Below, piece after piece: positions 601 through 31,800 of a stretch of DNA of 41,344 bases. The first letter of the stretch is position 1; every line of letters begins with the position of its first letter. A program made the translations under genes and the position numbers. This stretch comes from Tahibacter caeni (GTDB taxonomy: Bacteria > Pseudomonadota > Gammaproteobacteria > Xanthomonadales > Rhodanobacteraceae), in contig NZ_JANFVR010000007.1 in assembly GCF_024609805.1 (NCBI RefSeq), positions 1-41,344 on the forward strand. Reading direction: 5' to 3'. Under the pieces are notes generated by a model, which saw only the letters and a program-made list of their open reading frames with translations, had not been told where the DNA came from and did not search any database.

Positions 601-3030
601 ATGAAACCGATTCGCCGCCAGCTCGTCGCCAGCCTGCGCCAGGCCCTGCTCGTCTCGCTGACCGCAGCGAGCCTGCCCGCCGTCGCGCAGATCGCCGAGA
701 CCGAAGACAACCTGCTCGAACGCATCGTCGTCACGGCGCAGAGCCGCGAGCAGGAACTGCAGGAAGTCCCGATCGCGATCCAGGTCGTCGACGAAAAGCT
801 CATCACCGAGACCACCGCCTACGATCTGCAGGACATCGACAACTTCGTGCCCGGCCTCGTCGTCAGCGGACAGAAGACGCAGCCGTACTTCGCGATCCGC
901 GGCATCAGCACCGGCGACTTCGGCATCGGCACCGATCCGGCGGTCGGCGTCTACGTCGACGGCGTCTATTCGGCGCGCTCGGGCGGCTCGGTGCTCGCGT
1001 TCAACGACGTCGAGCGCATCGAAGTGCTCAAGGGCCCGCAGGGTACGCTGTTCGGCCGCAACAGCGCGGCCGGCGCGGTGTCGCTGATCAGCAAGCAGCC
1101 GGGCCGCGATCTCGAAGGCCGCGTGACCACGCGCTTCGGCAACGACGGCCAGCGCTACGTGGACGGGCTGATCAACACGCCGCTCGGCGACACGACCGCG
1201 CTGCGCGTCAGCGTGCTGCGCAACGAATCCGACGGCTGGCTGCGCGACGCGGCCACCGGCCGCGACCTCAACGGCGACGACAACTGGGCCGCGCGCGCCG
1301 CCTTTCGCTGGGACCTGTCGAACTCGACCAACGCCGTGCTGACCTGGGACCACGAGCGGCTCGACCAGCTCGCGCGCCCGGCCATCGGCATCGTGCCGTT
1401 GCCGGCGTCGCCGGACTGGCCGCCGTCGCCGCCGGATCCGGCGACCTATCTCGATCCGCGCCGCGCGCCCGTGTTCAACGACGTGGAGGGCAACGAGGAA
1501 TCGCGCACGTTCGACGGCGCGACTCTCGCGATCAATCACGACGCCGACTGGGGCCACCTGACCTCGACGACGGCCTGGCGCGAGTTCGACACGGTCAATC
1601 GCGAGGACGAGGATGGCACGAACCGGCGCTATCTGTATCTCGACACCGCCAACATCGAGGACAACCGCAGCTTCTACCAGGAGCTCAAGTTCTCCGGCGA
1701 CACGGGCACGGTGAACTGGGTCGCCGGCGCGAGCTACTACCGCGAGAAGGCCAACCAGACCTCGCAGGTCAACGTGTTCACCGACAGCCTCGACACCCTG
1801 ATCCGCAACCAGGGCCTCGCGCCGACGCCGGACGGCACCCTGTTCGGCTATTTCAGCGACGTGCTCGCCTCGTTCGACGCGCCGTTCAGCCTGCGCGACC
1901 ATCGCTGGCGCGAGGAGATGATCAACAGCGCCGACTCGCGCGCGTATGCGCTGTTCGGCGACACGATCTGGGCGCTCAGCGACACGACCCACTTCACGGT
2001 CGGCCTGCGCTACACGCGCGACGAGAAGAAATTCAGCTGGCTCAACGGCCCGCGCAGCGCGCCTACGCTGGATGCGACCGTCCAGCAGCTGTTGCCGCTG
2101 GTCGCGCAGCTGCCGCCGGAGCTGCAGGAGCAGGCGCTGTTCGCACTCGGCGTCGCCGGCAGCGACATCGTGTTCGCGAACGGCGAGCTCGAAGGCGTCA
2201 AGGTGCGCGACAGCAAATCCTGGAGCGACCTGAGCCCGCGCTTCGTGCTCGACCATCAGGTCACGCCGGACACCATGCTGTTCGCCTCGCTGGCCAAGGG
2301 CTACAAGGCCGGCGGCTACAACAGCCTGGACATCGGCGCGAAGTTCGACAACGAGGACGTCTGGAATCTCGAAGCCGGCCTCAAGCAGGTCGATCACGAG
2401 CACGGCCTGATGTGGAGCGCGTCGGCGTTCTACTACGTCTATTCCGACCGCCAGGCCATCCGCCTGGATCCGAACAGCGCCGGCAGCGGCGTGCCGCGCT
2501 ATCTCGTCGACACCAGCGACGAGAAGGCCTGGGGCATCGACGCCGGCCTGCAGTGGCAGCCGGTCCGCGCGCTGACTCTCGATGCGAATCTCGCGTTCAT
2601 CGATGCGACCTACAAGGACAAGGTCGCGCCGAGCGGCGCGGATCTGTCCGGCCAGGCGACCGGCGAGCCGTATCTGTCGTTCTCGCTCGGCGGCCAGTAC
2701 CGCTGGGATCTCGGCGGCGCCGGCGCGATGACCCTGTCGCTGCGCCACGCCTACCGCGGCAAGAGCCGCTGCAACGCCGACTCGCAGTTGCAGGGCGATT
2801 GCAGCGTCAGCCCGAACGTCGACGTCGGCGCCGCACAGCAGCGCACCGACCTGCGCCTGGGCTGGACCGACGCCGCCGACCACTGGCATGCGGCCGCGTT
2901 CGCGACGAACCTGTTCGACAAGCGCTACGTCGAAGGCGTCGGCAACTACACGACCGACGTGTTCGGCACCACCTACGCGACGATCAGCGCGCCGCGCCTG
3001 TACGGCGTGGAGGTCGGCTACCGGTTCTGA
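601..3030 (+). CDS. TonB-dependent outer-membrane receptor
   Basis: This encodes an 809-residue outer-membrane active transporter powered by TonB-ExbBD. The ATG at 601 is chosen because a GGGGAG ribosome site lies 6-11 bases upstream and the product begins with a signal peptide ending near LPAVAQ. An upstream in-frame ATG at 436 would add a stretch that does not look like protein. After cleavage come a TonB-box-like segment (ERIVVTAQ), the plug domain with FAIRGIS, VGVYVDGVY and VLKGPQGTLFGRN, and a long 22-strand-type barrel ending in YGVEVGYRF, with the terminal Phe needed for barrel assembly. The plug is of the class often called CirA/FecA or SusC-unrelated 'TonB receptor' in xanthomonads. 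The substrate cannot be read from the sequence. No FecR or sigma factor lies nearby, so regulation by surface signalling is unlikely. Confidence 0.95.
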   Translation: MKPIRRQLVASLRQALLVSLTAASLPAVAQIAETEDNLLERIVVTAQSREQELQEVPIAIQVVDEKLITETTAYDLQDIDNFVPGLVVSGQKTQPYFAIRGISTGDFGIGTDPAVGVYVDGVYSARSGGSVLAFNDVERIEVLKGPQGTLFGRNSAAGAVSLISKQPGRDLEGRVTTRFGNDGQRYVDGLINTPLGDTTALRVSVLRNESDGWLRDAATGRDLNGDDNWAARAAFRWDLSNSTNAVLTWDHERLDQLARPAIGIVPLPASPDWPPSPPDPATYLDPRRAPVFNDVEGNEESRTFDGATLAINHDADWGHLTSTTAWREFDTVNREDEDGTNRRYLYLDTANIEDNRSFYQELKFSGDTGTVNWVAGASYYREKANQTSQVNVFTDSLDTLIRNQGLAPTPDGTLFGYFSDVLASFDAPFSLRDHRWREEMINSADSRAYALFGDTIWALSDTTHFTVGLRYTRDEKKFSWLNGPRSAPTLDATVQQLLPLVAQLPPELQEQALFALGVAGSDIVFANGELEGVKVRDSKSWSDLSPRFVLDHQVTPDTMLFASLAKGYKAGGYNSLDIGAKFDNEDVWNLEAGLKQVDHEHGLMWSASAFYYVYSDRQAIRLDPNSAGSGVPRYLVDTSDEKAWGIDAGLQWQPVRALTLDANLAFIDATYKDKVAPSGADLSGQATGEPYLSFSLGGQYRWDLGGAGAMTLSLRHAYRGKSRCNADSQLQGDCSVSPNVDVGAAQQRTDLRLGWTDAADHWHAAAFATNLFDKRYVEGVGNYTTDVFGTTYATISAPRLYGVEVGYRF

Positions 3031-3039
3031 GCCCGCCGA

Positions 3040-3073
3040 TGGTGCCGGCGTCCGCGATGCGGCGCCGGCACCA
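3040..3073. terminator. Hairpin between convergent genes (possible bidirectional terminator)
   Basis: An 11-bp perfect stem, 3040-3050 with 3063-3073, lies between the end of the TonB receptor gene and the end of the convergent glycosidase-like gene. There is no T run, so it may stop transcription weakly or need Rho. Confidence 0.45.
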
Positions 3074-3085
3074 CGACCGGTCGAC

Positions 3086-3892
3086 TCACTTCGGCGGCGC
3101 CGGCTCGGCGTCGTCGCCGATCGCATCGACGACGCCGATCAGCGGACCCAGCCGCGCGCGCGCCGTATCGCGGCGCGGCGTCCGCGCATAAAAGCTCGAC
3201 ACCGAGCCGTCGAAATACAGCGCGTCGGAGCACTGCAGCACGTCACGGAAATACGTCGCGAATGCATGCAGGGTGACCGGCCGTTCGCTGATGACGAAAC
3301 GCACGCGCCCGCCGCAGATGCCCACGCCGTTGCGCACGTGGCGCGAGCGCGACGCCGGATCCAGGCGCGGATGCAGCGCGCCGTGCTGCAGCAGCAACGG
3401 ACCCGACTGCGTCGCGAGCTGCACGCCCGTCGCGACGTCCGCGTAGCGCGAGGCTTCGACGATCTGCGCGCCGCCGGCGCCGACCAGGAATACGCCGTTG
3501 GGCTTCAGGTAGAAATTGCCGGTGCCGTCGCCGAGGTCGAGCGGACTGCGCTCGATTCCGTCGGCGACGAACAGGCCGACCGGCCGGAAGCCCGGATGGA
3601 ACATGCCGGCGTTCATGCCCCAGCGCAGCCGCCGGCCGCGCCGCTGCAGCCAGGCATCGAGCCGGCGCAGACTCAGGAACGGACGCTGCGCGTCGTCGTC
3701 GAGGAACAGCGCGAGGCGGTCGTGCGCGAGGTCGACGTCGACGACCGTGCAGGCCGCCTCGGGCCCGACCGCCGCAACGCCGTGCAGGCCGCCGAACAGC
3801 AGTCCGAACACGGCGACGGCCCGGCGCCGCAGTGTCCACGACGGCGGCGCCGCATCGGCACGCGCCGGAGGCCGGCTTCGTTCGCGCTGCAT
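3086..3892 (-). CDS. Phosphodiester glycosidase family protein (NAGPA/DUF2233-like), exported
   Basis: The 268-residue product has a basic N-terminus, a hydrophobic segment at about residues 24-43 that looks like a signal peptide or anchor, and one DUF2233 (NAGPA-like) domain filling the rest. Recognisable family motifs are WGMNAGMF, GFRPVGLFV, LKPNGVFLV, the ATQSGPLLL segment and LYFDGSVSSFYA near the C-terminus. Characterised members remove N-acetylglucosamine from phosphodiesters, as in the mammalian uncovering enzyme; in bacteria the substrate is generally a cell-wall or exopolysaccharide phosphodiester and is not known here. The ATG at 3892 has GGAG five bases upstream. The gene converges on the TonB receptor gene and has no obvious operon partner; the next minus-strand gene starts about 80 bp away on its 5' side. 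Confidence 0.85.
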   Translation of the reverse strand: MQRERSRPPARADAAPPSWTLRRRAVAVFGLLFGGLHGVAAVGPEAACTVVDVDLAHDRLALFLDDDAQRPFLSLRRLDAWLQRRGRRLRWGMNAGMFHPGFRPVGLFVADGIERSPLDLGDGTGNFYLKPNGVFLVGAGGAQIVEASRYADVATGVQLATQSGPLLLQHGALHPRLDPASRSRHVRNGVGICGGRVRFVISERPVTLHAFATYFRDVLQCSDALYFDGSVSSFYARTPRRDTARARLGPLIGVVDAIGDDAEPAPPK

Positions 3893-3973
3893 GGAAACTC
3901 CATCGACCCGACCGCGCGAATCTACACCGTAACGACCGCGGCTACGTGCAGGCCGAGCCCGGTCGACGCGCCG

Positions 3974-4651
3974 TCACCAGCGCTTCCACCAGGGCCGCTT
4001 GCCGCCGCGGTAGACGAAGCCCGGCGCCGCGCGCACGTTGTCGTCGATGCGCAAGGTCGCCTCGACGCGGTCGAGCAGGCTGCGCGCGCGCGACAGCGCA
4101 TGATCGGGAAAGCGCGCATCGTGTGTGCGCGCATCGGACAGGTTCCAGAGCAGGCCGCTCGCGCCCGCGTCGCCGTAGGGGTCGCGCGCCCAGCCGAGCA
4201 GATCGCCGTGCTCGGACCGGGTCACCTGGCCGCTGGCCATCGCGTGCTGGAGCACCTGCGCTTCGCGCACGCCGGCCGTCGTGCGCTCGACGCAATGCAC
4301 TTTGACGAGAAAACCGAATTCGCGGAACGGCAGCACCAGCGAAGCGAGGTAGCTCAGGCCGCCGGACGGCTGCGGCAGCTTGCGCACGATACGCACGGCC
4401 GCGCAGCCGGCCACGCGCACGGGGTCGCATTCGATGAGCCCGTGGCCCTCGGCGACGGCGCGCTCGCGATAGAAGCGGCGCACGCCGGCGGTATCCGTCG
4501 GATCCGCGGCGAGGTCCGGCGGACCGTCGATGAAATGCACGCCGAGCGTATCGCCGCCGGCGCTGGTCCATTCGCGCAGTGCGCTGCCGGTCGTGGTCAT
4601 GCGCAGGCCGCGCAGGTCGAAGCGCAGCGATTCCGCCGAAATCAGCATCAT
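3974..4651 (-). CDS. Protein of unknown function, 225 residues
   Basis: I do not recognise this family. The frame continues upstream to a TTG at 4849, but the upstream residues are Arg-rich shadow-like sequence, so the double ATG at 4651/4648, directly preceded by AGGG, is the likely start. The protein has no signal peptide or membrane segment and looks like a single alpha/beta cytoplasmic domain: a strand-rich N-terminus (LISAESLRFDLRGLRM), a central segment with CDPVRVAGCAAVRIVRKL and a long FREFGFLVKVHCVERTTAGVREA stretch, and a basic C-terminus ending WWKRW. The body resembles small lipid- or stress-related proteins of the type predicted to bind hydrophobic ligands only in general composition, so no function is proposed. 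It is 81 bp upstream (5' side) of the glycosidase-like gene and may share its transcript. Confidence 0.7.
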   Translation of the reverse strand: MMLISAESLRFDLRGLRMTTTGSALREWTSAGGDTLGVHFIDGPPDLAADPTDTAGVRRFYRERAVAEGHGLIECDPVRVAGCAAVRIVRKLPQPSGGLSYLASLVLPFREFGFLVKVHCVERTTAGVREAQVLQHAMASGQVTRSEHGDLLGWARDPYGDAGASGLLWNLSDARTHDARFPDHALSRARSLLDRVEATLRIDDNVRAAPGFVYRGGKRPWWKRW

Positions 4652-4985
4652 CCCTGCGCGTACCCTGGGCCACGGCCTGCCGCGTTCGCGGCGCCGTCGT
4701 ACGCCAAGTCGCTGCGTCGTGGTTCTGTCCGTGTCATCGCTCGCCTTGATTGTCTGCGGCGACCGCCGTCCCGCTCCTCGCGGAAGCCGGCTCGGCCGCT
4801 GCGCCGCAACATCGATTCGCGCCGATATTCCCATGACGGAGCAGGCCAAGAAAGACCGTCACGACGGCGGCGTGACGGTTTCGACACCTGCCGCGAACGC
4901 AACCGCCATCTGCTGCGGATCGCGCGCCGCACGGGCCGCTTCATGCGACCATCGTCGAACGATCCGCCGCCACGACCGGAGCGCC
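4652..4985. other. Divergent intergenic region with a 25-bp dyad
   Basis: This 334-bp stretch separates the divergent starts of the unknown protein (minus) and the HisN-like gene (plus). The main visible element is the perfect inverted repeat at 4855-4879. A smaller 13-bp palindrome sits at about 4951-4964. I see no convincing sigma-70 hexamer pair and no further coding sequence. Confidence 0.5.
4855..4879. promoter_or_regulatory. 9-bp inverted repeat with 7-bp spacer, possible operator
   Basis: ACCGTCACG at 4855-4863 and its exact complement at 4871-4879 flank seven bases. The spacing puts the half-site centres 16 bp apart, suited to a dimeric regulator; it could also fold as an RNA hairpin. 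No T run follows. Confidence 0.4.
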
Positions 4986-5801
4986 GTGAACCGTCCCGAC
5001 CTGCAGGAACTGCTGCGCTTCGCGCTGGAACTGGCCGATCTCGCGCAGGCGCAGATCCTCCCGCACTACCAGCGCTGCGGCACCGAACTCAAGGCCGACG
5101 GCAGTGAAGTCACCGCGGCCGATCGCGCCGCCGAACGGGCGATACGCGCGGCGATCGCGCAGCGTCATCCGATGCACGCGGTGATCGGCGAGGAATTCGG
5201 CGGCGAGCGCGACGCGCCGGCGCAGTGGATCGTCGATCCGCTGGACGGCACCAGCGCGTTCGCGCTCGGCATGCCGCTGTTCGGCACACTGATCGCCTAT
5301 GCCGAGCACGGCGAGCCGCTGGTCGGCGTGATCCATTTTCCGGTGCTCGGCGAAACGGTCTACGCCGCGCTCGGCGGCGGCTGCTGGTTCCGTCGCCGCG
5401 ACGGCGCGACGGAACGCGTCCGCGTCGGCGCGGCGGCCGCGATCGAGGATGCCGTCGTCTCCGCCTCCGGCGTGCACGCGACCGACGTGCTGCCCGCCGC
5501 CGACGGCACCGCCCACGTGCTGACGCCGTTGCTGCGGCGCGCGCGCAAGTTCCGCTTCTGCGGCGACTGCCTGCAGCACGCGCTGGTCTGCCGCGGCAGC
5601 CTGCACGTCGCGATCGACACCGTCATGCAGCCCTGGGACATCGCCGCGCTGGTGCCCTGCATCGAGGAGGCCGGCGGCGTCGCGAGCGCGCTGGACGGCC
5701 GCCGCGAAGGCCTGGTGCACGCCGGCAGCCTCGTCGCTTCCTGCAGTCCCGCGCTGCACGCGGCCGTGCTCGACGTGCTGAATGCACGGGAGGGCTGCTG
5801 A
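4986..5801 (+). CDS. hisN: Inositol monophosphatase family protein, probable histidinol-phosphatase
   Basis: The 271-residue product carries the lithium-sensitive Mg-dependent phosphatase signature: GEE at residues 68-70, DPLDGT at 84-89 and PWDIAAL with the third metal-binding Asp at 218. These residues bind the Mg ions used to hydrolyse a phosphate monoester. The segment GMPLFGTLIAY after the DPLDGT motif, and the length, fit the HisN-like branch, which hydrolyses histidinol phosphate, better than SuhB or CysQ. The start is the GTG at 4986, preceded by GGAG with a 4-base gap; upstream codons in this frame look non-coding. No other histidine-biosynthesis gene is nearby, so the substrate is inferred from sequence only. 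A general inositol- or nucleotide-phosphatase role remains possible. Confidence 0.85.
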   Translation: MNRPDLQELLRFALELADLAQAQILPHYQRCGTELKADGSEVTAADRAAERAIRAAIAQRHPMHAVIGEEFGGERDAPAQWIVDPLDGTSAFALGMPLFGTLIAYAEHGEPLVGVIHFPVLGETVYAALGGGCWFRRRDGATERVRVGAAAAIEDAVVSASGVHATDVLPAADGTAHVLTPLLRRARKFRFCGDCLQHALVCRGSLHVAIDTVMQPWDIAALVPCIEEAGGVASALDGRREGLVHAGSLVASCSPALHAAVLDVLNAREGC

Positions 5802-5898
5802 ACCTGACGATCGTCGATCGATCCGGCCGCCGCGATCGGCGGCAGTAGCCGTCGCCGCCGTGCGCCGCCGCCGTCTCATCGCCTTCCCGGAGTCGCCC

Positions 5899-6356
5899 AT
5901 GATCTATCTGCTGCTCAAGCTCGTGCATGTCGCCGCGGTCGTGCTGTTCCTCGGCAATACGACGCTGGGATTATTCTGGGTGCGCCACGCCCGCCGCCTG
6001 GACGCGCCGGCGCGCATCGCCGAAACCCTGGACGGCGTGATCCGCAGCGACCGCCTGTTACCCTGCCCTGCGTGCTGATCCTCGCCGTGGCCGGCATCGG
6101 CGCGGCGCTGTACGGCGGCCTGCCGCTGCTGCGCACGCCCTGGATCGCCGCAGGCCTGGCGCTGTTCGCGCTGTCGGGGTTCAGCTATCGCTGGGTAGGG
6201 CAGCTGCAGCAGCGCATCCTCGGCGAAGCCCGCCGCCCCGACGCGACGCTCGCGCAGCTCGACCCGCTGCTGCAGCGCTGGAGCCGCATCGCCAGCTTCA
6301 GCGTCGGACTGGCCTGGATCGCGCTGATCGTCATGGTGCTCAAGATTCCGCGCTGA
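5899..6356 (+). pseudogene. DUF2269 family membrane protein gene, broken by a one-base deletion
   Basis: Two overlapping frames together encode one four-helix membrane protein of about 152 residues. The first frame starts at the ATG at 5899 (GGAG upstream) with YLLLKLVHVAAVVLFLGN and runs to SDRLL before going out of frame at about 6057-6060. The second frame carries LPCVLILAVAGIGAALY, then two more hydrophobic segments, and stops at 6354-6356. Restoring one base after the TT near 6058 rejoins them as a typical DUF2269 sequence (R-S-D-R-L-F-T-L-P-C). The family is an inner-membrane protein of unknown function. The lesion could be a true pseudogene mutation or an assembly error in this single position. 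The downstream half keeps good codon use, so any mutation is recent. Confidence 0.75.
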
Positions 6357-6371
6357 GTGCCGGCGCGGCGT

Positions 6372-6431
6372 CCAGCGCCGAACACGACGTGCCGCGTCTG
6401 CCGGAGCAGGCCGTGGACCAGTACGAAGTCC
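6372..6431 (-). pseudogene. Duplicated 3'-end fragment of thpR
   Basis: From 6381 to 6431 this matches 7881-7931, the 3' end of thpR, at 46 of 51 bases by eye, in the same orientation and exactly 1,500 bp away; the match extends with one indel to about 6372. On the minus strand it still reads VLVHGLLRQTRHVVFG against VLVHSLLGQTRHVVLG in the intact protein. There is no start or upstream part of the gene. It marks the far edge of the low-GC segment that follows. Confidence 0.8.
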
Positions 6432-6515
6432 CCGTGCCTGCCTGCGCAGGCGATCACGCGACATATTCGCCTGATCGATCGGTCCAGACGCTCGTCTTCA
6501 GGGAGATACAAGGCG

Positions 6516-6758
6516 ATGAAGATCTACGGCCGCGCAGCGGCGAACAGCAACGATGCCGCACCGAGCGCCCTCGTCGAGGCCGCGTTATGCGCAACGCCGG
6601 ACGAACTGCGCCGCATCGCCGCGTTCCTGACGCTCTGCGCCGACGAGCTGGAGTACCTGGGCGAGCGCTACGGCCATCTGCATCTCGCCGACCGCATGAG
6701 CGGGTTCGGCGGATCGCCGACTCTGACCGTGTTTGCCGCCGAATCCGGCTCAGCGTGA
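6516..6758 (+). CDS. Small Imm32-like protein
   Basis: This 80-residue cytoplasmic protein starts MKIYGRAAAN at the ATG at 6516, with AAGG three bases and GGGAG eleven bases upstream. The segment DELRRIAAFLTLCADELE is the part I associate with the Imm32 immunity-protein family of polymorphic toxin systems (typical pattern: MKIYG, an acidic SEV-like stretch, PEELRKIAAFL, CAxE, then HxHLxD). Here the later part reads YGHLHLADRM. Such proteins are thought to bind and neutralise a partner toxin. No toxin gene is adjacent; the neighbour is an exported protein on the opposite strand. The assignment is from memory of the family pattern and is moderate. The gene lies in the low-GC segment bounded by thpR copies, which suggests transfer. 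Confidence 0.6.
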   Translation: MKIYGRAAANSNDAAPSALVEAALCATPDELRRIAAFLTLCADELEYLGERYGHLHLADRMSGFGGSPTLTVFAAESGSA

Positions 6759-6790
6759 TAGCAAGCGGGCAGGATCGGGGATCTACTACT

Positions 6791-7684
6791 TCAACGCATC
6801 GGCGCCGAATCGTCGAAATCGCTCGCGAACAGGCGATCGATGGACAGCTGAAGATAGCTTATCGGGGCCGGAACCGCGGGAAGCAGTCGACCGCCGTTCG
6901 CTGCGTCGGTCATCCATTGATCGATCAGTTGTATCGGAAAGGCCAGCGGCCGCTCGTAGACGGAATTCGACGTCAACCGAACAAGACAGCTGGATTCGCC
7001 CCGCGGCGGCACGTCGGGTAGCAGAACTCCGTAACCGAAGTCGAAACACATCGGTCCGTATACGGAGCTGCCGCAACCGCCGGCGATTGCGCCGTCCACC
7101 GCGAAAGGTAGCGCTTCCATCAGGCAAAAGCCGGCCCGCAGATCACGCACAGTCACCGCTGAGTCGTTGTGGACTACGAGACTTACCAGCCCCTGCGCAC
7201 GGCCATTCTGGAGTATCGAGGCAGGCGCCGCCTCGAGGCGCAACTCCAGCCCAGGAACCGTGCCGAGCTTGAAGTTCAGCGAATTGATCCGCGTCCCCGA
7301 ATAAGGTTCGTTAGAAAACTCGATCGCCAAGTCGCTGCGCGACGAAGCATTGCGCTGTACCGCGTAGGAACATGTGTAATCTCCGGCTGGAAAATAGATC
7401 GACTGCGACCAGGGCAATTCCTGCAGATCGGGGCAACTCGCAGGGCTGTCCCCAGCTGTCGTCACGATGTATTGATCTGTCCCCGCCGAGTGGCACCACA
7501 GGTGGGCGGCTGCGCCGGTGCCGTGAGCACGAAACCGGAAAATTCCCCGATCGCCGGGCAACAGATGCCGGATCGTATCGTCGAGCGGCGTCAATACCAC
7601 GTCGGGAACGGACTGGGCATTGGCCGGCGCAATGATCGATAGCAATACTGCTGCGGCTATGGCGTTGGGGCGCAATCTGGTCAT
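6791..7684 (-). CDS. Exported protein of unknown function, 297 residues
   Basis: The start at 7684 is chosen because the product then begins with a clear signal peptide (MTRLRPNAIAAAVLLSIIAP, cleavage after ANA); an upstream in-frame ATG at 7813 would bury it. No good ribosome site is visible. The mature part is rich in beta-strand-like segments and has about eight cysteines, among them those in LWCHSAG, SCPDLQEL, YTCSYAV, GFCLMEA, GCGSS and CFDFGYG, suggesting disulfides in the periplasm or outside the cell. A middle segment (SLVVHNDSAVTVRDLRAGF) looks like an immunoglobulin-like fold. The C-terminus carries IDRLFASDFDD, a short motif also seen near the N-terminus of the DUF1800 protein. GC content is about 57 %, well under the neighbours, in keeping with transfer. 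I do not recognise the family. Confidence 0.75.
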   Translation of the reverse strand: MTRLRPNAIAAAVLLSIIAPANAQSVPDVVLTPLDDTIRHLLPGDRGIFRFRAHGTGAAAHLWCHSAGTDQYIVTTAGDSPASCPDLQELPWSQSIYFPAGDYTCSYAVQRNASSRSDLAIEFSNEPYSGTRINSLNFKLGTVPGLELRLEAAPASILQNGRAQGLVSLVVHNDSAVTVRDLRAGFCLMEALPFAVDGAIAGGCGSSVYGPMCFDFGYGVLLPDVPPRGESSCLVRLTSNSVYERPLAFPIQLIDQWMTDAANGGRLLPAVPAPISYLQLSIDRLFASDFDDSAPMR

Positions 7685-7855
7685 GCTGTAAGGATGGCGC
7701 AATCTCGTGGCAACGCTACCCTTGTCAGTGATGCCGCAGACAACCGCGTTGTTTTCTCCAAGACGACCGAGACGCAAACGTCCCCCAGGCATCGCTTCCC
7801 GTGGTGCGGCCACTCGACGCCGGGTGGATTCCCGCTGACGCCACGTGGCGTTGGC

Positions 7856-8458
7856 TCAGCCTTCGAGCGCCCAGCGCCCGAGCACGACGTGCCGCGTCTG
7901 ACCGAGCAGGCTGTGGACCAGCACGAAGTCCTGCGCGGTCCAGGTTATCGGCGTCACGGCTTCGGCGTCGACGGTCTGCGCCGCATAGGCCAGCGTGACG
8001 TGCGGCTCGAACGTGCGCGAGACGCAGCGGCCGAGTCCGTTGCGCGCGAGCGCCGTGCCGAGTTCGGCGCGGAACGCGTGCAGTGCCGCGTTGCCGCCGC
8101 CGGCCTTCAGCACGAGCGGACGCTTGTCGCGCCGGCCGGAAAAACTCGCGACCTCGTCGAGCGTGATCGGGAACGGCACCGCGCGCAGCGACGCCGCAGC
8201 CGTCCTGGCCGCTTCCACCGTGTCCGTCGGCAGGCCGGCCCAGTCGCCGATGTGGAACAGCGTGATGTGGAGCCGGCCGGGCTGATGCCGCGGCCCGCGT
8301 ATGCCGTGACGCGCGCAGACCTCGGCGCCGAGCGCGTCGATGCGCGCCGCCGTCGCCGCATCCGGATACAGGCCGAGAAACAGGCGGTCGGTCGGGACGA
8401 GCGGCGCGTTGCCGAACAGCGAGGACTGGACGGACGCATCGTCTTGCGGAGATGACAT
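7856..8458 (-). CDS. thpR: RNA 2',3'-cyclic phosphodiesterase (2'-5' RNA ligase family)
   Basis: The 200-residue product has the two HxT motifs of the 2H phosphoesterase superfamily, HITL at residues 64-67 and HVTL at 153-156, spaced as in ThpR. These enzymes open 2',3'-cyclic phosphate ends of RNA and can ligate tRNA halves through 2'-5' bonds. The family's usual N-terminal SLFG-then-RLFLGLYPD layout is present. The ATG at 8458 is preferred because AAGG lies five bases upstream and because the protein then has the normal length. The frame stays open for 71 more codons to an ATG at 8671, two bases after the icmF stop, so a longer product is possible. The 3' end is duplicated at 6372-6431. Confidence 0.85.
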   Translation of the reverse strand: MSSPQDDASVQSSLFGNAPLVPTDRLFLGLYPDAATAARIDALGAEVCARHGIRGPRHQPGRLHITLFHIGDWAGLPTDTVEAARTAAASLRAVPFPITLDEVASFSGRRDKRPLVLKAGGGNAALHAFRAELGTALARNGLGRCVSRTFEPHVTLAYAAQTVDAEAVTPITWTAQDFVLVHSLLGQTRHVVLGRWALEG

Positions 8459-8673: not shown

Positions 8674-11600
8674 CTACATATTGCGCCGATACTCGCCGCC
8701 GACGTCGTAGAGCGCGTGGCTGATCTGGCCGAGACTGTGGGTCTTGACCGCTTCCATAAGGCTCTCGAACACGTTGCGGCGTTCGCGCGCGGCGGCCTGC
8801 AACGGCTTGAGGCCGCTGTCGGCGTAGCCGTTGCGGTTGGCCTGGTACTTCGCGACGTTGTCGATCTGCTGGCCCTTCTCGCTCTCCGTCGAACGGATCA
8901 GCTCGATCTCGGTGACGATGTCGCCGCCGTGGTCCTTCGGCAGGAAGGTGTTGACGCCGATCAGCGGCAGGCTGCCGTCGTGCTTCTTGTGTTCGTAGTA
9001 GAGGCTTTCTTCCTGGATCTTGCCGCGCTGGTACATCGTGTCCATCGCGCCGAGCACGCCGCCGCGCTCGCTGATCGCCTCGAATTCCTTGTAGACGGCT
9101 TCCTCGACGAGGTCCGTCAGCTGGTCGACGACGAAGCTGCCCTGCCACGGGTTCTCGTTGAAATTGAGGCCGAGTTCCTTGTTGATGATCATCTGGATCG
9201 CGACGGCGCGGCGCACGCTCTCCTCGGTCGGCGTGGTGATCGCCTCGTCGTAGGCGTTGGTGTGCAGGCTGTTGCAGTTGTCGAACAGCGCATAGAGCGC
9301 CTGCAGGGTCGTGCGGATGTCGTTGAACTGGATTTCCTGCGCGTGCAGCGAACGGCCCGAGGTCTGGATGTGGTACTTCATCATCTGACTGCGTGCCGAG
9401 GCGCCGTAGCGCTCGCGCATCGCGCGCGCCCAGATGCGCCGCGCGACGCGGCCGATGACCGTGTATTCCGGGTCCATGCCGTTGGAGAAGAAGAACGACA
9501 GGTTCGGCGCGAAGTCGTCGATCTTCATGCCGCGCGCGAGGTAGTACTCGACGATCGTGAAGCCGTTCGACAAGGTGAAGGCGAGCTGGCTGACCGGGTT
9601 CGCGCCGGCCTCGGCGATGTGATAGCCCGAGATCGACACCGAATAGAAGTTGCGCACGTTGCGGTCGACGAAATACTGCTGGATGTCGCCCATCATGCGC
9701 AGCGCGAACTCGGTCGAGAAGATGCAGGTGTTCTGCGCCTGGTCTTCCTTGAGGATGTCCGCCTGCACCGTCCCGCGCACGGTCGCGAGGGTCTGCGCCT
9801 TGATCCGCGCGTAGGTCTCCGCATCGACGACCTGGTCGCCGGTCACGCCGAGCAGGCCGAGGCCGAGGCCGTCGTTGCCGTCGGGCAGCAGACCGCCGTA
9901 CTGCGGCCGCGCGCGGCCGCGATAGAGCCCGGCGATCGTCGCGCGCGCGGCTTCCCAGCGCGCGTCGTCGGCGCGCAGGTATTTCTCGACCTGCTGGTCG
10001 ATCGCGGTGTTCATGAACATCGCGAGGATGATCGGCGCCGGGCCGTTGATCGTCATCGACACCGACGTGCTCGGCGCGCAGAGGTCGAAGCCCGAATAGA
10101 GCTTCTTCATGTCGTCCAGGGTCGCGATGTTGACGCCGGAGTTGCCGATCTTGCCGTAGATGTCCGGGCGGACGGCCGGGTCCTCGCCGTACAGGGTGAC
10201 CGAGTCGAACGCCGTCGACAGGCGCGCGGCCGGCAGGCCGACGCTCAGGTAGTGGAAGCGCCGGTTCGTGCGCTCGGGCGTGCCTTCGCCGGCGAACATG
10301 CGGATCGGGTCCTCGCCGCTGCGCCGGTACGGATAGACGCCGCCGGTGTACGGGTAGTAGCCCGGCAGGTTCTCCTTCTGCAGGAACACGAGCAGCTCGC
10401 CCCAGCTGCGGTACTTCGGCGCGGCGATCTTCGGGATCTTCTGGTGGCTCAGCGACTCGCGGTAGTTCTCCACGCGGATGGTCCTGTCGCGGACCTGGTA
10501 TTCGTTGACCTCGTCGGTCACCGACTTCAGCCGCGCCGGCCATTCGCGCAGCAGCTTCAGCGCTTCGGACGACAGCGACTGCACGGCGTCGTTGTAGCGC
10601 TGGCGCAGGGTCTTCAGGCTGCGCTCGTCGCCGGCCAGCAACGCATCGGCCGCGTACAGCTCCAGTGCCTTCGGCAGCTGCGCGTCCTCGAGATCGCGCA
10701 GGGACTGCCAGTACGACTGCGCGCGGTCGGCGGTCTCGGCCTGGGCCAGGATCGCCGCGTTGATGCCGCGCCCCTGCTCGGCGATCTCGGCCAGATAGCG
10801 CACGCGGTTGCCCGGAATCAGCACCGTCGCGCGCGGCTCCTTCAACGAGGTGTCGAGCGCGGGGCTGAAATCGCAGCGCGGGTTGCCGATTCCCGATTCC
10901 CCATTCCCGACTCCCGGCTTGTGCCGCAGCAGGCGGCACAAGCTCACGAACATCCAGCTGATCCCCGGATCGTTGAACTGGCTCGCGATCGTCGGATAGA
11001 CCGGCACGTCCTCGTCCTTCATCTGGAACGCCGTGCGGTTGCGCTTCCACTGCTTGCGCACGTCGCGCAGCGCGTCCTCGGCGCCGCGCTTGTCGAACTT
11101 GTTCAGCACGACGAGCTCGGCATAGTCGAGCATGTCGATCTTCTCGAGCTGGCTCGGCGCGCCGAAGTCGCTGGTCATCACGTAGACCGGGAAGTCGACG
11201 AGATCGACGATTTCCGAGTCCGACTGGCCGATACCGGCCGTCTCGACGATGACGAGGTCGTAGCCGAGCCCCTTGAGGAACGCGATGCAGTCCTTGAGCA
11301 CGACGTTGGTCGCGACGTGCTGGCGCCGCGTCGCCATCGAACGCATGAACACGCGCGGGCTGCGCAGCGCGTTCATGCGGATGCGGTCGCCGAGCAGCGC
11401 GCCGCCGGTGCGGCGCCGCGTCGGATCGACCGAGATCACGGCGATGCGCATCGCCGGAAAGCTCGCGAGGAAGCGGTTCAGCAGTTCGTCGGTGACCGAG
11501 GACTTGCCGGCGCCGCCGGTGCCGGTGATGCCGATGACCGGCGCGCCGCGGCCGGCCAGCGCGAAGCGCGGATCCGCGCCGGCCCAGTCCTTGCGCAGCC

Positions 11601-25819: not shown

Positions 25820-28800
25820 TCAGCTCATGCGCCGCTCGTGCTGGCGCCAGGCCAGCGCGGCCAGAGCCAGCATCATCAGCAGCATCGCGAACCAGCCCAG
25901 CGCCGGTGCCGGCACCGGCGTGCTGCCGAGCACGACCAGCGGCACCGAGGCGTTGCACGGACCCGGCTGGCCGGACGGCATGCACACCGTGTTCGACGAC
26001 GGCGACACGACGACCGTGTTGAGCAGGTTGCCGCTGGCCGTGGCCGAGATCTGCGCGGTGATCGTGTAGATCAGGCTCGCGCCGACCGGCAGCTGCGGAA
26101 CGGTCTGGTACAGCGCACCCGTGCCGCTGGCCGCCGGGCAGACCGCGCCGCCGCTGCCCGAGCAGGTCCAGATGAAGCCGACGATGCCGGCCGGCAGCGC
26201 GTCGTCGACGATCACGTTGTTGGCCGGGATCGTGCCGACGTTCGTCACGGTGACCGTATAGGTCGCCGTGCCGCCGGCCGCGACGGTCGTGGTGTTGACC
26301 GTCTTGGTCACCTGCAGGCGCGGCGACTGTTCCGTCGGCGTCAGCACGCACTGCGGACCGGCCGGCGGGCAGGCCGGCGGCGTGGTGCCGGTCAGGTAGG
26401 CCAAATTCGCGACCTGGCTCACGCCGAGCGGAATCGGACTGGCCACCTGCACGACGACCGTCAGCTGCAGGCTGCCGCCGGCGGGAATGGACAGGCCGCT
26501 CCAGCTGACGAGGCCGGCCGCGAAGGTGCCGCCGTTGTCGGCGCTGACGAAGCTCGTGTTCGCGTCGATGCGGTCGGTGGCTCCGACATTCGTCGCCGCG
26601 GTGCCGCCGCTGTTGGCCAGCGTGATCGTATAGGTCAGCGTCTCGCCGGGTTCGGCCACTCCGGGCTGCGCGCCGCTCTCGCCGCTCAGCGCCTTGGTCA
26701 CGGCGACGTTCGCCGCGGTCGGGATCGTCACGCATTCCGGCGGCAGCGGCATGCTGCTGCAGTTCGGCGGTGTCGTGCCGGTCTCATAGGCGAGATTCAC
26801 GACCTGCGTGACGCCGGCCGGCAGCGGGTCGGCCACGGTCACCGTCACGGTCAGGTTCAAGTTGCCGCCCGGCGGCACGGTCAGGCCCGACCAGAGCACG
26901 TTGCCGCCGCTGGCCGCGCCGCCGTTGCTCGCACTGACGAAGACCACGTTCTGATCCAGCGGATCGGTCACGCCGACGTTCTGCGCCGCCGCGCCGCCGC
27001 TGTTGCTCAGCGCGATCGTGTAGACCAGTGTCTCGCCGGGCTCGGCCACGCCGGCCACGCTGCCGCTCTCGCTGCTCAGGGTCTTGACGATGCGCACGTC
27101 GGCCTGCAGCGGATGCGTCGTGCTGCAGCTCGTGCAGTCCGGCGGATTCGTGCCGCCGCCGCCCGTCGCAGCCACGCTGTTGTTGACCGAGCCCGTCGCG
27201 TTCGCATTGACCGTCGCGGTGTAGCTGACCGCATACGTGCCCGGCACGGTTCCGCTGGGCAACGTGCACTGCACGGCACCCGTGCAGGTGTACGCGCCCG
27301 CGCTCGTGACCGCGCCGAAGGTCTGGTTCGCGCTGATCGTGTCGGCCAGCACCAGCGGCGCGGTCAGCGCGGCGTTCGCGACGGTCGCGGTCACCGTGTA
27401 CGTGATCGTCTGGCCTGGTGTCACGGTCGTGCCGCTGGCCGGGTTCGAGCTCTTGACCACGCTGACGACCGGATTCAGCGAATGCGTCGTGCTGCAGCTC
27501 GTGCAGTCCGGCGGATTGCTGCCGCCGCCGCCCGTCGCGACGACGACGTTGCCGACCGTGCCGGTTGCGTTCGTGTTGACCGTTGCCGTGTAGCTCACCG
27601 CATAGGTGCCCGGCGCGGTGCCGCTAGCCAACGTGCACTGCACGGAACCGGTACAGCTGTAGGCGCCGGCGCTCGTGACCGAACCGAAGGTCTGGTTCGC
27701 GCTCAAGGTGTCAGTCAGCACGAGCGGCGCGCTCAGCGCGGCGTTCGCCACGGTCGCCGTCACCGTGTAGGTGATCGTCTGGCCGGCCGAGACCGCCGTG
27801 CCGCTGGCCGGATTCGACGTCTTGACGACGACGATGCCCGGGTTCAGCGGATGCGTCGTGCCGCACGAGGTGCAGTCCGGCGGATTGCTGCCGCCGCCTC
27901 CCGTCGCAACCACGGTGTTGCCGACCGTGCCGGTTGCGTTCGTGTTGACCGTTGCCGTGTAGCTGACCGCGTAGGTACCCGGCGCGGTGCCGCTAGCCAA
28001 CGTGCACTGTACGGAACCGGTGCAGGTGTACGCGCCGGCGCTCGTGACCGCACCGAAGGTCTGGTTCGCGCTGAGCGTATCGGTCAGCACGAGCGGCGCG
28101 GTCAGCGCCGCGTTCGCGACGGTCGCCGTCAACGTGTAGGTGATCGTCTGGCCGGCGGCCACGGCCGCGCCGCTGGCCGGGTTCGAGCTCTTTACGACCG
28201 TGACGACCGGGTCCAGCGGATGCGTCGTGCTGCACGAGGTGCAGTCCGGCGGGTTCGTGCCGCCGCCGCCCGTGGCCGCGACGACGTTGCCGACCGTGCC
28301 GGTCGCATTCGCGTTGACCGTTGCGGTGTAGCTGACCGCATACGTGCCCGGCGCGGTGCCGCTCGGCAGGGTGCACTGCACGGTGCCGGTACACGTGTAC
28401 GCACCGGCGCTCGTGACCGAACCGAAGGTCTGGTTCGCGCTCAGCGTATCGGTCAGCACGAGCGGTGCGGACAGCGCGCCGTTCACGACGGTCGCCGTCA
28501 GCGTGTAGGTGATGGTCTGGCCCGGCAGCACGGCCGTGCCGCTGGCCGGGTTCGAGGTCTTGACGACCGCAATGCCCGGATTCAGCGGATGCGTCGTGCT
28601 GCAGGTCGTGCAGTCCGGCGGATTGCTGCCACCGCCGCCCGTCGCGGTCACGTTGTTGTTGACCGAGCCGGCCGCGTTCGCATTGACGGTCGCGGTGTAG
28701 CTGACCGCATAGGTACCCGGCGTCGTGCCGCTCGGCAGGGTGCACTGCACCGTGCCCGTGCAGGTATACGCGCCCGCGCTCGTGACCGTACCGAAGGTCT

Positions 28801-31800
28801 GGTTCGCGCTGATCGTGTCGGTCAGCACCAGCGGTGCCGTCAACGTGCCGTTGGCGACCGTGGCCGTCAGCGTGTAGGTGATCGTCTGGCCCGGGATCAC
28901 GGCCGTGCCGCTGGCCGGGTTCGAGGTCTTGACCACGGTGACGGCCGGATCCAGCGGATGCGCCGTGCTGCAGGTCGTGCAGTCCGGCGGATTGCTGCCG
29001 CCGCCGCCCGTCGCGACGACGTTGTTGTTGACCGAGCCGGCCGCGTTCGCATTGACGGTCGCGGTGTAGCTGACCGCATAGGTACCCGGCGTCGTGCCGC
29101 TCGGCAGGGTGCACTGCACCGTGCCCGTGCAGGTATACGCGCCCGCGCTCGTGACCGTACCGAAGGTCTGATTCGCGCTGATCGTGTCGGTCAGCACCAG
29201 CGGTGCCGTCAACGTGCCGTTGGCGACCGTGGCCGTCAGCGTGTAAGTGATCGTCTGGCCTGGGATCACGGCCGTGCCGCTGGCCGGGTTCGAGGTCTTG
29301 ACGACGGCGACGACAGGGCTCAACGGATGCGTGGTGCTGCAGCTCGTGCAGTCCGGCGGATTGGAACCGCCGCCGCCCGTGGCCGCGACCGTGTTGCCGA
29401 CCGAGCCGGCCGCGTTCGCGTTCACCGTCGCGGTATAGCTGACCGCATACGTGCCCGGCGTCGTGCCGCTCGGCAGGGTACACTGCACCGAGCCCGTGCA
29501 GGTGTAGGCGCCCGCGCTCGTGACCGTACCGAAGGTCTGGTTCGCACTGATCGTGTCGGTCAGCACCAGCGGACTGGTCAAGGTGCCGTTCGTGACCGTG
29601 GCCGTCAGCGTGTAGGTGATGGTCTGCCCCGGCAGCACGGCCGTGCCGCCGGCCGGATTCGAGGTCTTCACCACGGTGACGGCCGGATCCAGCGGATGCG
29701 TCGTGCTGCAGGAGGTGCAGTCCGGCGGATTCGTGCCGCCGCCGGTCGCCACGACACTGTTGCCGACCGAGCCGGCCGCGTTCGCGTTGACCGTCGCGGT
29801 ATAGCTGACGGCATACGTGCCCGGCGCGGTGCCGCTCGGCAGCGTGCACTGCACGGAACCGGTGCAGCTGTAGGCACCCGCGCTCGTGACCGCACCGAAG
29901 GTCTGGTTCGCGCTGATCGTATCGGTCAACACCAGCGGCGCGCTCAGCGAACCGGCGGTGACCGTCGCCGTCAGGGTGTAGGTGATGGTCTGGCCTGGCG
30001 TCACTACCGTGCCGCTGGTCGGGTTCGAGGTCTTGACGACCGTGACGGCCGGGTTCAGCGGATGCGTCGTACCGCAGCTCGTGCAGTCCGGCGGATTGCT
30101 GCCGCCGCCGCCCGTCGCGACGACGTTGTTGTTGACCGAACCGGTCGCGTTCGCATTGACCGTCGCGGTGTAGCTGACCGCGTAGGTGCCCGGCGACGTG
30201 CCGATCGGCAAGGTGCACTGCACCGTGCCGGTACACGTGTACGCGCCGGCGCTCGTGACCGTACCGAAGGTCTGGTTCGCGCTGATCGTGTCGGTCAGCA
30301 CGAGCGGCGCGGTCAATGCACCGTTCGTGACCGTCGCCGTCAACGTATAGGTGATGGTCTGGCCCGGCGAAACCACCGTGCCGCCGGCCGGATTCGAGGT
30401 CTTGACCACGCTGACGGCCGGATCGAGCAGGTGCGTCGTGCTGCAGGTCGTGCAGGTCGGCGGATTGCCGCCGCCGCCCGTTGCGGTCACGTTGTTGTTG
30501 ACCGAACCGGCCGCGTTCGCATTGACCGTCGCGGTATAGCTGACCGCGTACGCGCCCGGTGTCGTGCCGCTCGGCAACGTGCACTGCACGGAACCGGTGC
30601 AGGTGTAGGCGCCCGCGCTCGTGACCGTACCGAAGGTCTGGTTCGCACTGATCGTGTCGGTCAGCACCAGCGGCGCGGTCAGCGCGGCATTGGTCACCGT
30701 CGCGGTCAGGGTATAGGTGATGGTCTGGCCCGGGATCACGGCCGTGCCGCTCGCCGGATTCGAGGTCTTGACCACGGTGACGGCCGGGTTCAGCGGATGC
30801 GTCGTGCTGCAGCTCGTGCAGTCCGGCGGGTTGCCGCCGCCGCCGGCCGCGGCGACGGTGTTGCCGACCGTGCCGGTCGCATTCGTATTGACCGTCGCGG
30901 TGTAGCTGACCGCGTACGTGCCCGGCGTCGTGCCGCTCGGCAAGGTGCACTGCACGGAGCCGGTGCAGGAGTACGCGCCCGCGCTCGTGACCGTGCCGAA
31001 GGTCTGGTTCGCACTCAAGGTGTCAGTCAGCACCAGCGGCGCGCTCAGCGCCGCATTCGTCACGGTCGCGGTCAGGGTGTAGGTGATCGTCTGGCCGGCC
31101 GAGACGGCCGCGCCGCTGGCCGGGTTCGAGGTCTTGACGACCGTGACGGCGGGGTTCAGCGGATGCGTCGTGCTGCAACTCGTGCACGTCGGCGGGTTGC
31201 CGCCCCCGCCCGTCGCCGCGACGTTGTTGCCGACCGTGCCGGTCGCATTCGTATTGACGGTCGCGGTATAGCTGACCGCATACGTGCCCGGCGTCGTGCC
31301 GCTTGGCAGGGTGCACTGCACGGAACCCGTGCAGCTATAGGCGCCCGCGCTCGTGACCGTACCGAAGGTCTGGTTCGCCGACAACGTGTCGGTCAGCACC
31401 AGCGGCGCCGTCAGCGCGGCGTTGGTCACCGTTGCGGTCAACGTATAGGTGATGGTCTGACCCGCCGTCACGGCCGCGCCGCTGGCCGGGTTCGATGTCT
31501 TGACGACGGCGATGGCCGGGCTCAGCGGATGCGTGGTGCTGCAGGTCGTGCAGGTCGGCGGATTGCCGCCGCCGCCCGTCGCCGCGACGGTGTTGCCGAC
31601 CGTGCCGGTCGCGTTCGCATTGACCGTCGCGGTGTAGCTGACCGCGTACGTGCCCGGCGCCGTGCCGACCGGCAGGGTGCATTGCACCGAGCCCGTGCAG
31701 GTGTAGGCGCCCGCGCTCGTGACCGTACCGAAGGTCTGGTTCGCGCTCAGCGTATCGGTCAGCACGAGCGGCGCGCTCAGCGCCGCATTCGTCACCGTTG

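Follow-up and report, generated by a model that had tools for sequence, protein, structure and literature searches.

The locus examined here lies in the window, by which we mean the whole stretch of 41,344 nucleotides that was analysed; it is contig 643 of the Tahibacter caeni genome (G000 below), which comprises 5.46 Mb in 675 contigs. Its central gene is an intact thpR, and at some distance from the 3' end of this gene lies a second copy of that end (copy 1, the distal copy), so that two small genes are enclosed between copy 1 and the gene end proper (copy 2, the proximal copy). In the following we refer to the DNA between the copies as the islet (Table 1). The ThpR protein reaches 58.9 bits against the NCBIfam profile TIGR02258, under the cut-off of 65.7, and the best NCBIfam match of the inositol-phosphatase-like gene (IMP), HisN, is also below its cut-off. 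The DUF2269 gene directly adjoins copy 1; its halves, scanned separately, each fall below the PF10027 cut-off. Two further DUF2269 matches are present in the window genome, on contigs 233 and 212. The conserved gene SALREW is the far-side marker of the locus in G000 and in two relatives, G001 and G002. To the right of thpR follows a long gene, a 1,180-aa ORF named by eye as methylmalonyl-CoA-mutase-like. Elsewhere in the window, a minus-strand ORF at 25820-34720 encodes 2,966 aa and contains 15 tandem units of ~369 bp, of which the adjacent units at 28632 and 29001 are 98% identical. No tRNA was detected in the window and no Rfam match between 5700 and 8700, and a terminator scan at the islet edges gave nothing telling.

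Table 1. Genes and repeat copies at the thpR locus (window coordinates)
Feature	Position	Strand	Remarks
thpR, RNA 2',3'-cyclic phosphodiesterase (LigT/2H family)	7856..8458	-	200 aa, intact; PF13563 55.7 bits, PF02834 46.8 bits
Copy 2, functional thpR 3' end (proximal repeat)	7867..7931	-	
Copy 1 (distal repeat), duplicated and decayed thpR 3' end	6368..6431	-	
Islet, DNA between the copies	6432..7866	no strand	
Imm32-like small protein gene	6516..6758	+	80 aa; PF15566 just under cut-off
Putative exported protein gene	6791..7684	-	297 aa, 7 cysteines; signal peptide judged by eye
DUF2269 membrane protein gene, frameshift-split	5899..6356	+	halves match consecutive parts of PF10027
IMP, inositol-phosphatase-like gene	4986..5801	+	PF00459 150 bits; TIGR02067 232 bits (cut-off 275)
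Conserved gene (SALREW)	3974..4666	-	no Pfam family; start taken from the G002 reading

The two copies agree at 49 of 54 bases (91%; 6378-6431 against 7878-7931), in the same orientation, ungapped and at an offset of 1,500 bp, and with one gap the repeat spans ~65 bp (6368-6431 against 7867-7931). Alignment reproduces what an earlier, sequence-only reading of this DNA had reported of the repeat, i.e. its coordinates, its orientation, its offset and the 46 of 51 bases identical in the in-frame block. The repeat is real and lies far above chance; indeed, with up to 3 mismatches allowed, a 31-base pattern of it occurs at two places in the window, whereas 100 shuffles yield 0.00 occurrences on average. 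When the window's own genome was searched, the two copies were returned at E-values of 1e-68 and 6e-17, the others among the 40 of 160 candidates that were scored being short, with E-values of at least 6e-4. An assembly artefact joining two loci might be suspected from the number of contigs, but is highly improbable: 5 of the 54 bases are not the same in both copies, and the flanks are unique, where a false join through a repeat would tend to give identical copies, and the synteny on both sides matches that of relatives.

The edges of the repeat block are sharp. Because the block ends 8 bases short of the thpR stop codon, copy 1 is only part of a gene end and does not reproduce it completely; an extension through the thpR stop was not found in it, nor any recognisable stop, and a lenient alignment of the whole stretch that does continue past this point is not considered reliable. 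Past the block, the likeness to thpR is not significant either on the islet side, where 70 of 500 shuffles score as high and residual thpR sequence is consequently not claimed, or on the other side (127 of 500 shuffles, and 993 of 1000 in a second test). Short perfect palindromes are situated near both islet edges (6440-6451 and 7838-7851), each without a further occurrence in the window.

The first 17 codons of copy 1 read DFVLVHGLLRQTRHVVF, against DFVLVHSLLGQTRHVVL at the ThpR C-terminus. The copy had been described as still reading in frame, which is correct for these codons, but afterwards one base is lost and the frame with it. The observation as a whole is in this sense partly confirmed. 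Copy 1 furthermore differs at two positions where all 40 related thpR genes compared have the same base, namely the first base of the Ser codon and the first base of the Gly codon in HSLLG (invariance was counted on base positions, since one of the 40 relatives has Val in place of the Gly, with the same first base), and it alters a third position, conserved among the five members of the genus that were compared. Set against the same 40 genes, the proximal copy retains the usual bases. With these changes, the distal copy is dead, a duplicated remnant.

Its likely source can be narrowed down by comparison with G002, the closest relative by ThpR, to whose thpR copy 1 is identical at 43 of 51 bases, against 46 of 51 for the thpR of the window itself. 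The two thpR genes differ at four sites, and copy 1 sides with the window at three of them, one of which is apparently derived when other genus members are compared. Since copy 1 is nearest to the window's thpR and shares with it one derived-looking site, the duplication most likely arose within this lineage, from its own thpR, although the data are few. A derivation of copy 1 from the tail of a second 2H-phosphoesterase gene was also considered and ruled out, the paralogue tails in G000 (L137) and G002 (L139) being much less similar. The closeness of the decaying copy to the resident gene would also suit a course of events in which part of thpR was duplicated in tandem in this lineage, most of the second copy was then lost and the two passengers arrived separately. 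Such a history would, however, need several precise deletions, and neither a significant thpR remnant past the block nor, anywhere in the window genome, a second copy of the islet DNA was found; we regard it as unlikely.

A drop in GC content between the copies, put at about 57% by the sequence-only reading, is indeed present in sliding windows, but it amounts to 58-66% (300-bp windows starting at 6400-7700, against 67-76% for starts at 3000-6200), and a similar dip to 60-62% occurs in the mutase-like gene (300-bp windows starting at 8900-9100). The drop is hence real but not unique, and GC3 is the better sign of unusual DNA. With a GC3 of 0.69 for the exported-protein gene and 0.84 for the Imm32-like gene, compared with 0.88-0.94 in five neighbouring genes, it is the exported-protein gene that has unusual codon use. 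This low value may in part be a family trait, because the genes for related proteins elsewhere in the genus lie at 0.71-0.83.

Of the two passengers, one has the appearance of an ordinary small immunity-like protein, the other that of an exported protein which changes fast. The first had been recognised as Imm32-like, and its product does match PF15566 (E 6.4e-6), albeit at 26.4 bits, slightly below the Pfam cut-off of 27. Relatives of it are present in 19 of 233 family genomes including G000, and in none of the 7 other genus members; the gene was not found in G001 or G002, and searches of plasmids and viral contigs yielded one weak plasmid match and one weak viral-contig match of 38 residues. 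For the second, described as a cysteine-rich exported protein, a putative signal peptide can be made out by eye, but "cysteine-rich" is generous for 7 cysteines in 297 residues. This protein belongs to no family in Pfam, NCBIfam or PADLOC and has no match in the PDB or in phages, plasmids or viral contigs; a model built from two sequences consists mostly of beta strands, at low confidence (mean pLDDT 56.9). Its relatives, counting G000, number 7 in 233 family genomes, all at most 38% identical, and 9 in 398 order genomes, the best at 35%. The G002 protein is 40-41% identical to those of G004 and to two of the three G007 copies, and 32% to that of G000. The best tree, which is poorly resolved, weakly groups the G000 protein with the third G007 copy, and a constraint uniting the G000 and G002 proteins gives a p-AU of 0.233; we make no claim of their orthology from the tree.

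The locus takes different forms in related genomes. In G001, thpR and IMP converge, with ~76 bp between their stops, and the conserved gene comes after IMP; this intergenic DNA has no significant alignment to the window, and DUF2269 is missing there as well. Next to thpR in G002 lie, in this order, an ORF that by eye resembles a phytanoyl-CoA dioxygenase, a gene whose product is 32-33% identical to the exported protein, and the conserved gene; homology to the window restarts at window position 4861, ~93 bp beyond the stop of G002's own exported-protein gene. The scanned region of G002 holds no close IMP or DUF2269 match, and its dioxygenase-like ORF is absent from the islet of the window. Gene content downstream of thpR differs again in G003, G004, G006 and G007, the remaining members of the genus that were examined. 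A comparison of the thpR junction among relatives, as the sequence-only reading had proposed, places the islet DNA as absent from the closest comparable site, that of G001, and no blastn match to the islet was obtained downstream of thpR in either G001 or G002. The same reading had named relatives with both passengers and no thpR fragment as evidence against it, and G002 answers to this in part, having a relative of the exported protein next to which there is no thpR fragment, but lacking the Imm32-like gene. The sole copy-like match in G002 is at a second 2H-phosphoesterase paralogue ~14.9 kb downstream of thpR (L071), the 3' end of which resembles the genome's own thpR at 28 of 31 bases. The exported-protein family, though rare (7 of 233), adjoins thpR in G000 and G002 alike, and with the same orientation. 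In gene order, the window thus holds G002-type and G001-type partners side by side, with copy 1 at the seam.

Copies of the thpR end were sought in 80 related thpR regions with 1,287,706 bases downstream, 61 of them reaching at least 18 kb and 75 at least 3 kb. The best ungapped score of the thpR end against the downstream DNA averaged 12.6 (sd 2.2) in these regions, compared with 41.5 in the window over the 7.9 kb available, and the top score, 23.5, is that of the paralogue tail in G002. Apart from this tail, no thpR-end copy is found within 18.5 kb in the 80 regions, although strongly decayed copies would not stand out and larger islands could extend beyond this range, and the expectation that other cargo might be bounded by such copies was not borne out. 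The window and the first 40 regions, 748,075 bases together, contain 19 direct repeats of at least 45 bp and at least 86% identity, spaced by 300-6,000 bp; two regions have two pairs each and the window 15, of which the 8 listed are the thpR repeat and seven within the tandem-repeat gene. It follows from these scores and counts that the repeat structure is uncommon and that thpR is not a habitual target of small elements in the family as sampled.

The absence of an integrase, remarked on previously, holds more widely. Pfam scans revealed no recombinase in the two islet proteins, in three neighbour genes (DUF2269 in halves) or among 15 other window products, which are metabolic, receptor, signalling and uncharacterised proteins with no phage gene among them; the 8.9-kb repetitive ORF, the 1,180-aa mutase-like ORF and small ORFs were left out of the scan. 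Searches of phages and plasmids with the islet DNA were likewise negative, and no viral contig exactly matches a 21-base pattern taken from the repeat. Nor does the locus have the terminal inverted repeats and short target duplication of a transposon: none of the 14 inverted repeats listed pairs the islet ends, and the direct repeat is far longer than the usual target duplications of transposons. A search of the literature for integration at thpR or ligT found nothing relevant, from which we do not claim its absence from print.

These results bear on the possibility that the locus is the remnant of a site-specific integrative element, in which attP would have recombined with attB in the thpR 3' end, the copy brought by the element restoring the gene and the displaced end coming to lie distally, while the integrase was later deleted or acted in trans. 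Like genomic islands that tyrosine or serine integrases insert at the 3' ends of genes, the locus has DNA of foreign appearance between direct copies of a gene end and an intact host gene; the ~65 bp of gene end stand in direct orientation on both sides of DNA with unusual codon use (though the final bases of the gene are missing from copy 1), and a block of this length with sharp edges also fits an attachment core. Integration into protein-coding genes with reconstitution of the target is, moreover, a described habit of islands (PMC12884075). Unlike such islands, however, the locus contains two genes only, its distal copy has decayed, neither an integrase nor, in the 80 related regions, reuse of the site by other cargo has been found, and matches were lacking for the islet DNA in phages and plasmids and for the repeat pattern in viral contigs. 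We consider an integrative remnant rather improbable, if still a serious candidate. A mini-element moved in trans had been raised as possible; in this variant, an element of two genes lacking its own recombinase would depend on an integrase with specificity for the thpR 3' end and would persist here as a decaying resident. Nothing found here speaks for it, and we hold it to be very unlikely. Of the integration origin first proposed there stand the absence of the islet in G001, the odd codon use of the exported-protein gene and the distal end as a duplicated remnant, but site-specific integration, with no recombinase and no recurrence, is unsupported, so that the earlier interpretation as a whole is partly supported.

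What has to be accounted for, then, is a direct repeat, a decayed distal copy, two arrangements in relatives and no recurrence in the regions examined. We tentatively favour, at somewhat less than an even chance, a reading in which two locus variants were joined by recombination once in the past, the locus being their seam and not a recurrent mobile element. Such a seam explains why copy 1 lies where it does and has decayed, and why neither a recombinase nor recurrence is seen. A thpR followed by the exported-protein gene, as in G002, would have been joined to a block consisting of a thpR end, DUF2269, IMP and the conserved gene, as in G001 with DUF2269 added. The thpR end of this second arrangement would have been left as the distal copy, freed from selection, and would then have decayed. 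The joining may have been effected by ordinary RecA-type recombination, for instance if incoming DNA that bore the thpR 3' end crossed over once within it, or if the exchange was homologous at one end only; in neither case would an integrase be necessary. A homologous block at the junctions with no recombinase is compatible with RecA-type recombination, and not specific to it. Copy 1 would mark the older junction, and the enzyme, the direction and the donor of the exchange are likewise what we infer.

Precedents for such an event exist in part. In E. coli, a gene end is documented to become duplicated when a molecule bearing it integrates by one crossover; for the end of lacZ, a PCR product indicating the duplication was obtained from 56 of 60 Lac-minus clones, and the duplications in 14 sequenced clones measured 109-950 bp (PMC3240628). 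As in this RecA-dependent case, the thpR 3' end is duplicated on both sides of incoming DNA without an integrase, but the sequenced lacZ duplications were laboratory-made and 109-950 bp in length (PMC3240628), whereas that of the window measures ~65 bp and is old. The locus also resembles the outcome of homology-facilitated illegitimate recombination in natural transformation, in which ~1 kb of foreign DNA can be gained through one homologous and one illegitimate end. That process differs in that it generally yields a deletion of similar size and not a duplication (PMC3240628).

Several points weigh against a recombination seam. The G000 and G002 exported proteins may not be orthologues, given the identities and the poorly resolved tree described above; the Imm32-like gene and DUF2269 were found in neither G001 nor G002; and the G002 dioxygenase-like ORF is missing from the islet. 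Copy 1, without the last thpR bases and a recognisable stop, is not a clean native junction. Finally, no donor with a thpR end and the passengers was found in the 233 family genomes (best exported protein 38%), the 398 order genomes (35%), plasmids or phages.

The thpR locus illustrates that the copy of a gene end beside foreign-looking DNA can suggest an integrative element although the arrangements in relatives favour a simple recombination seam. If it were true that an integrase targets thpR, this gene would join the protein-coding attachment sites in this bacterial order.
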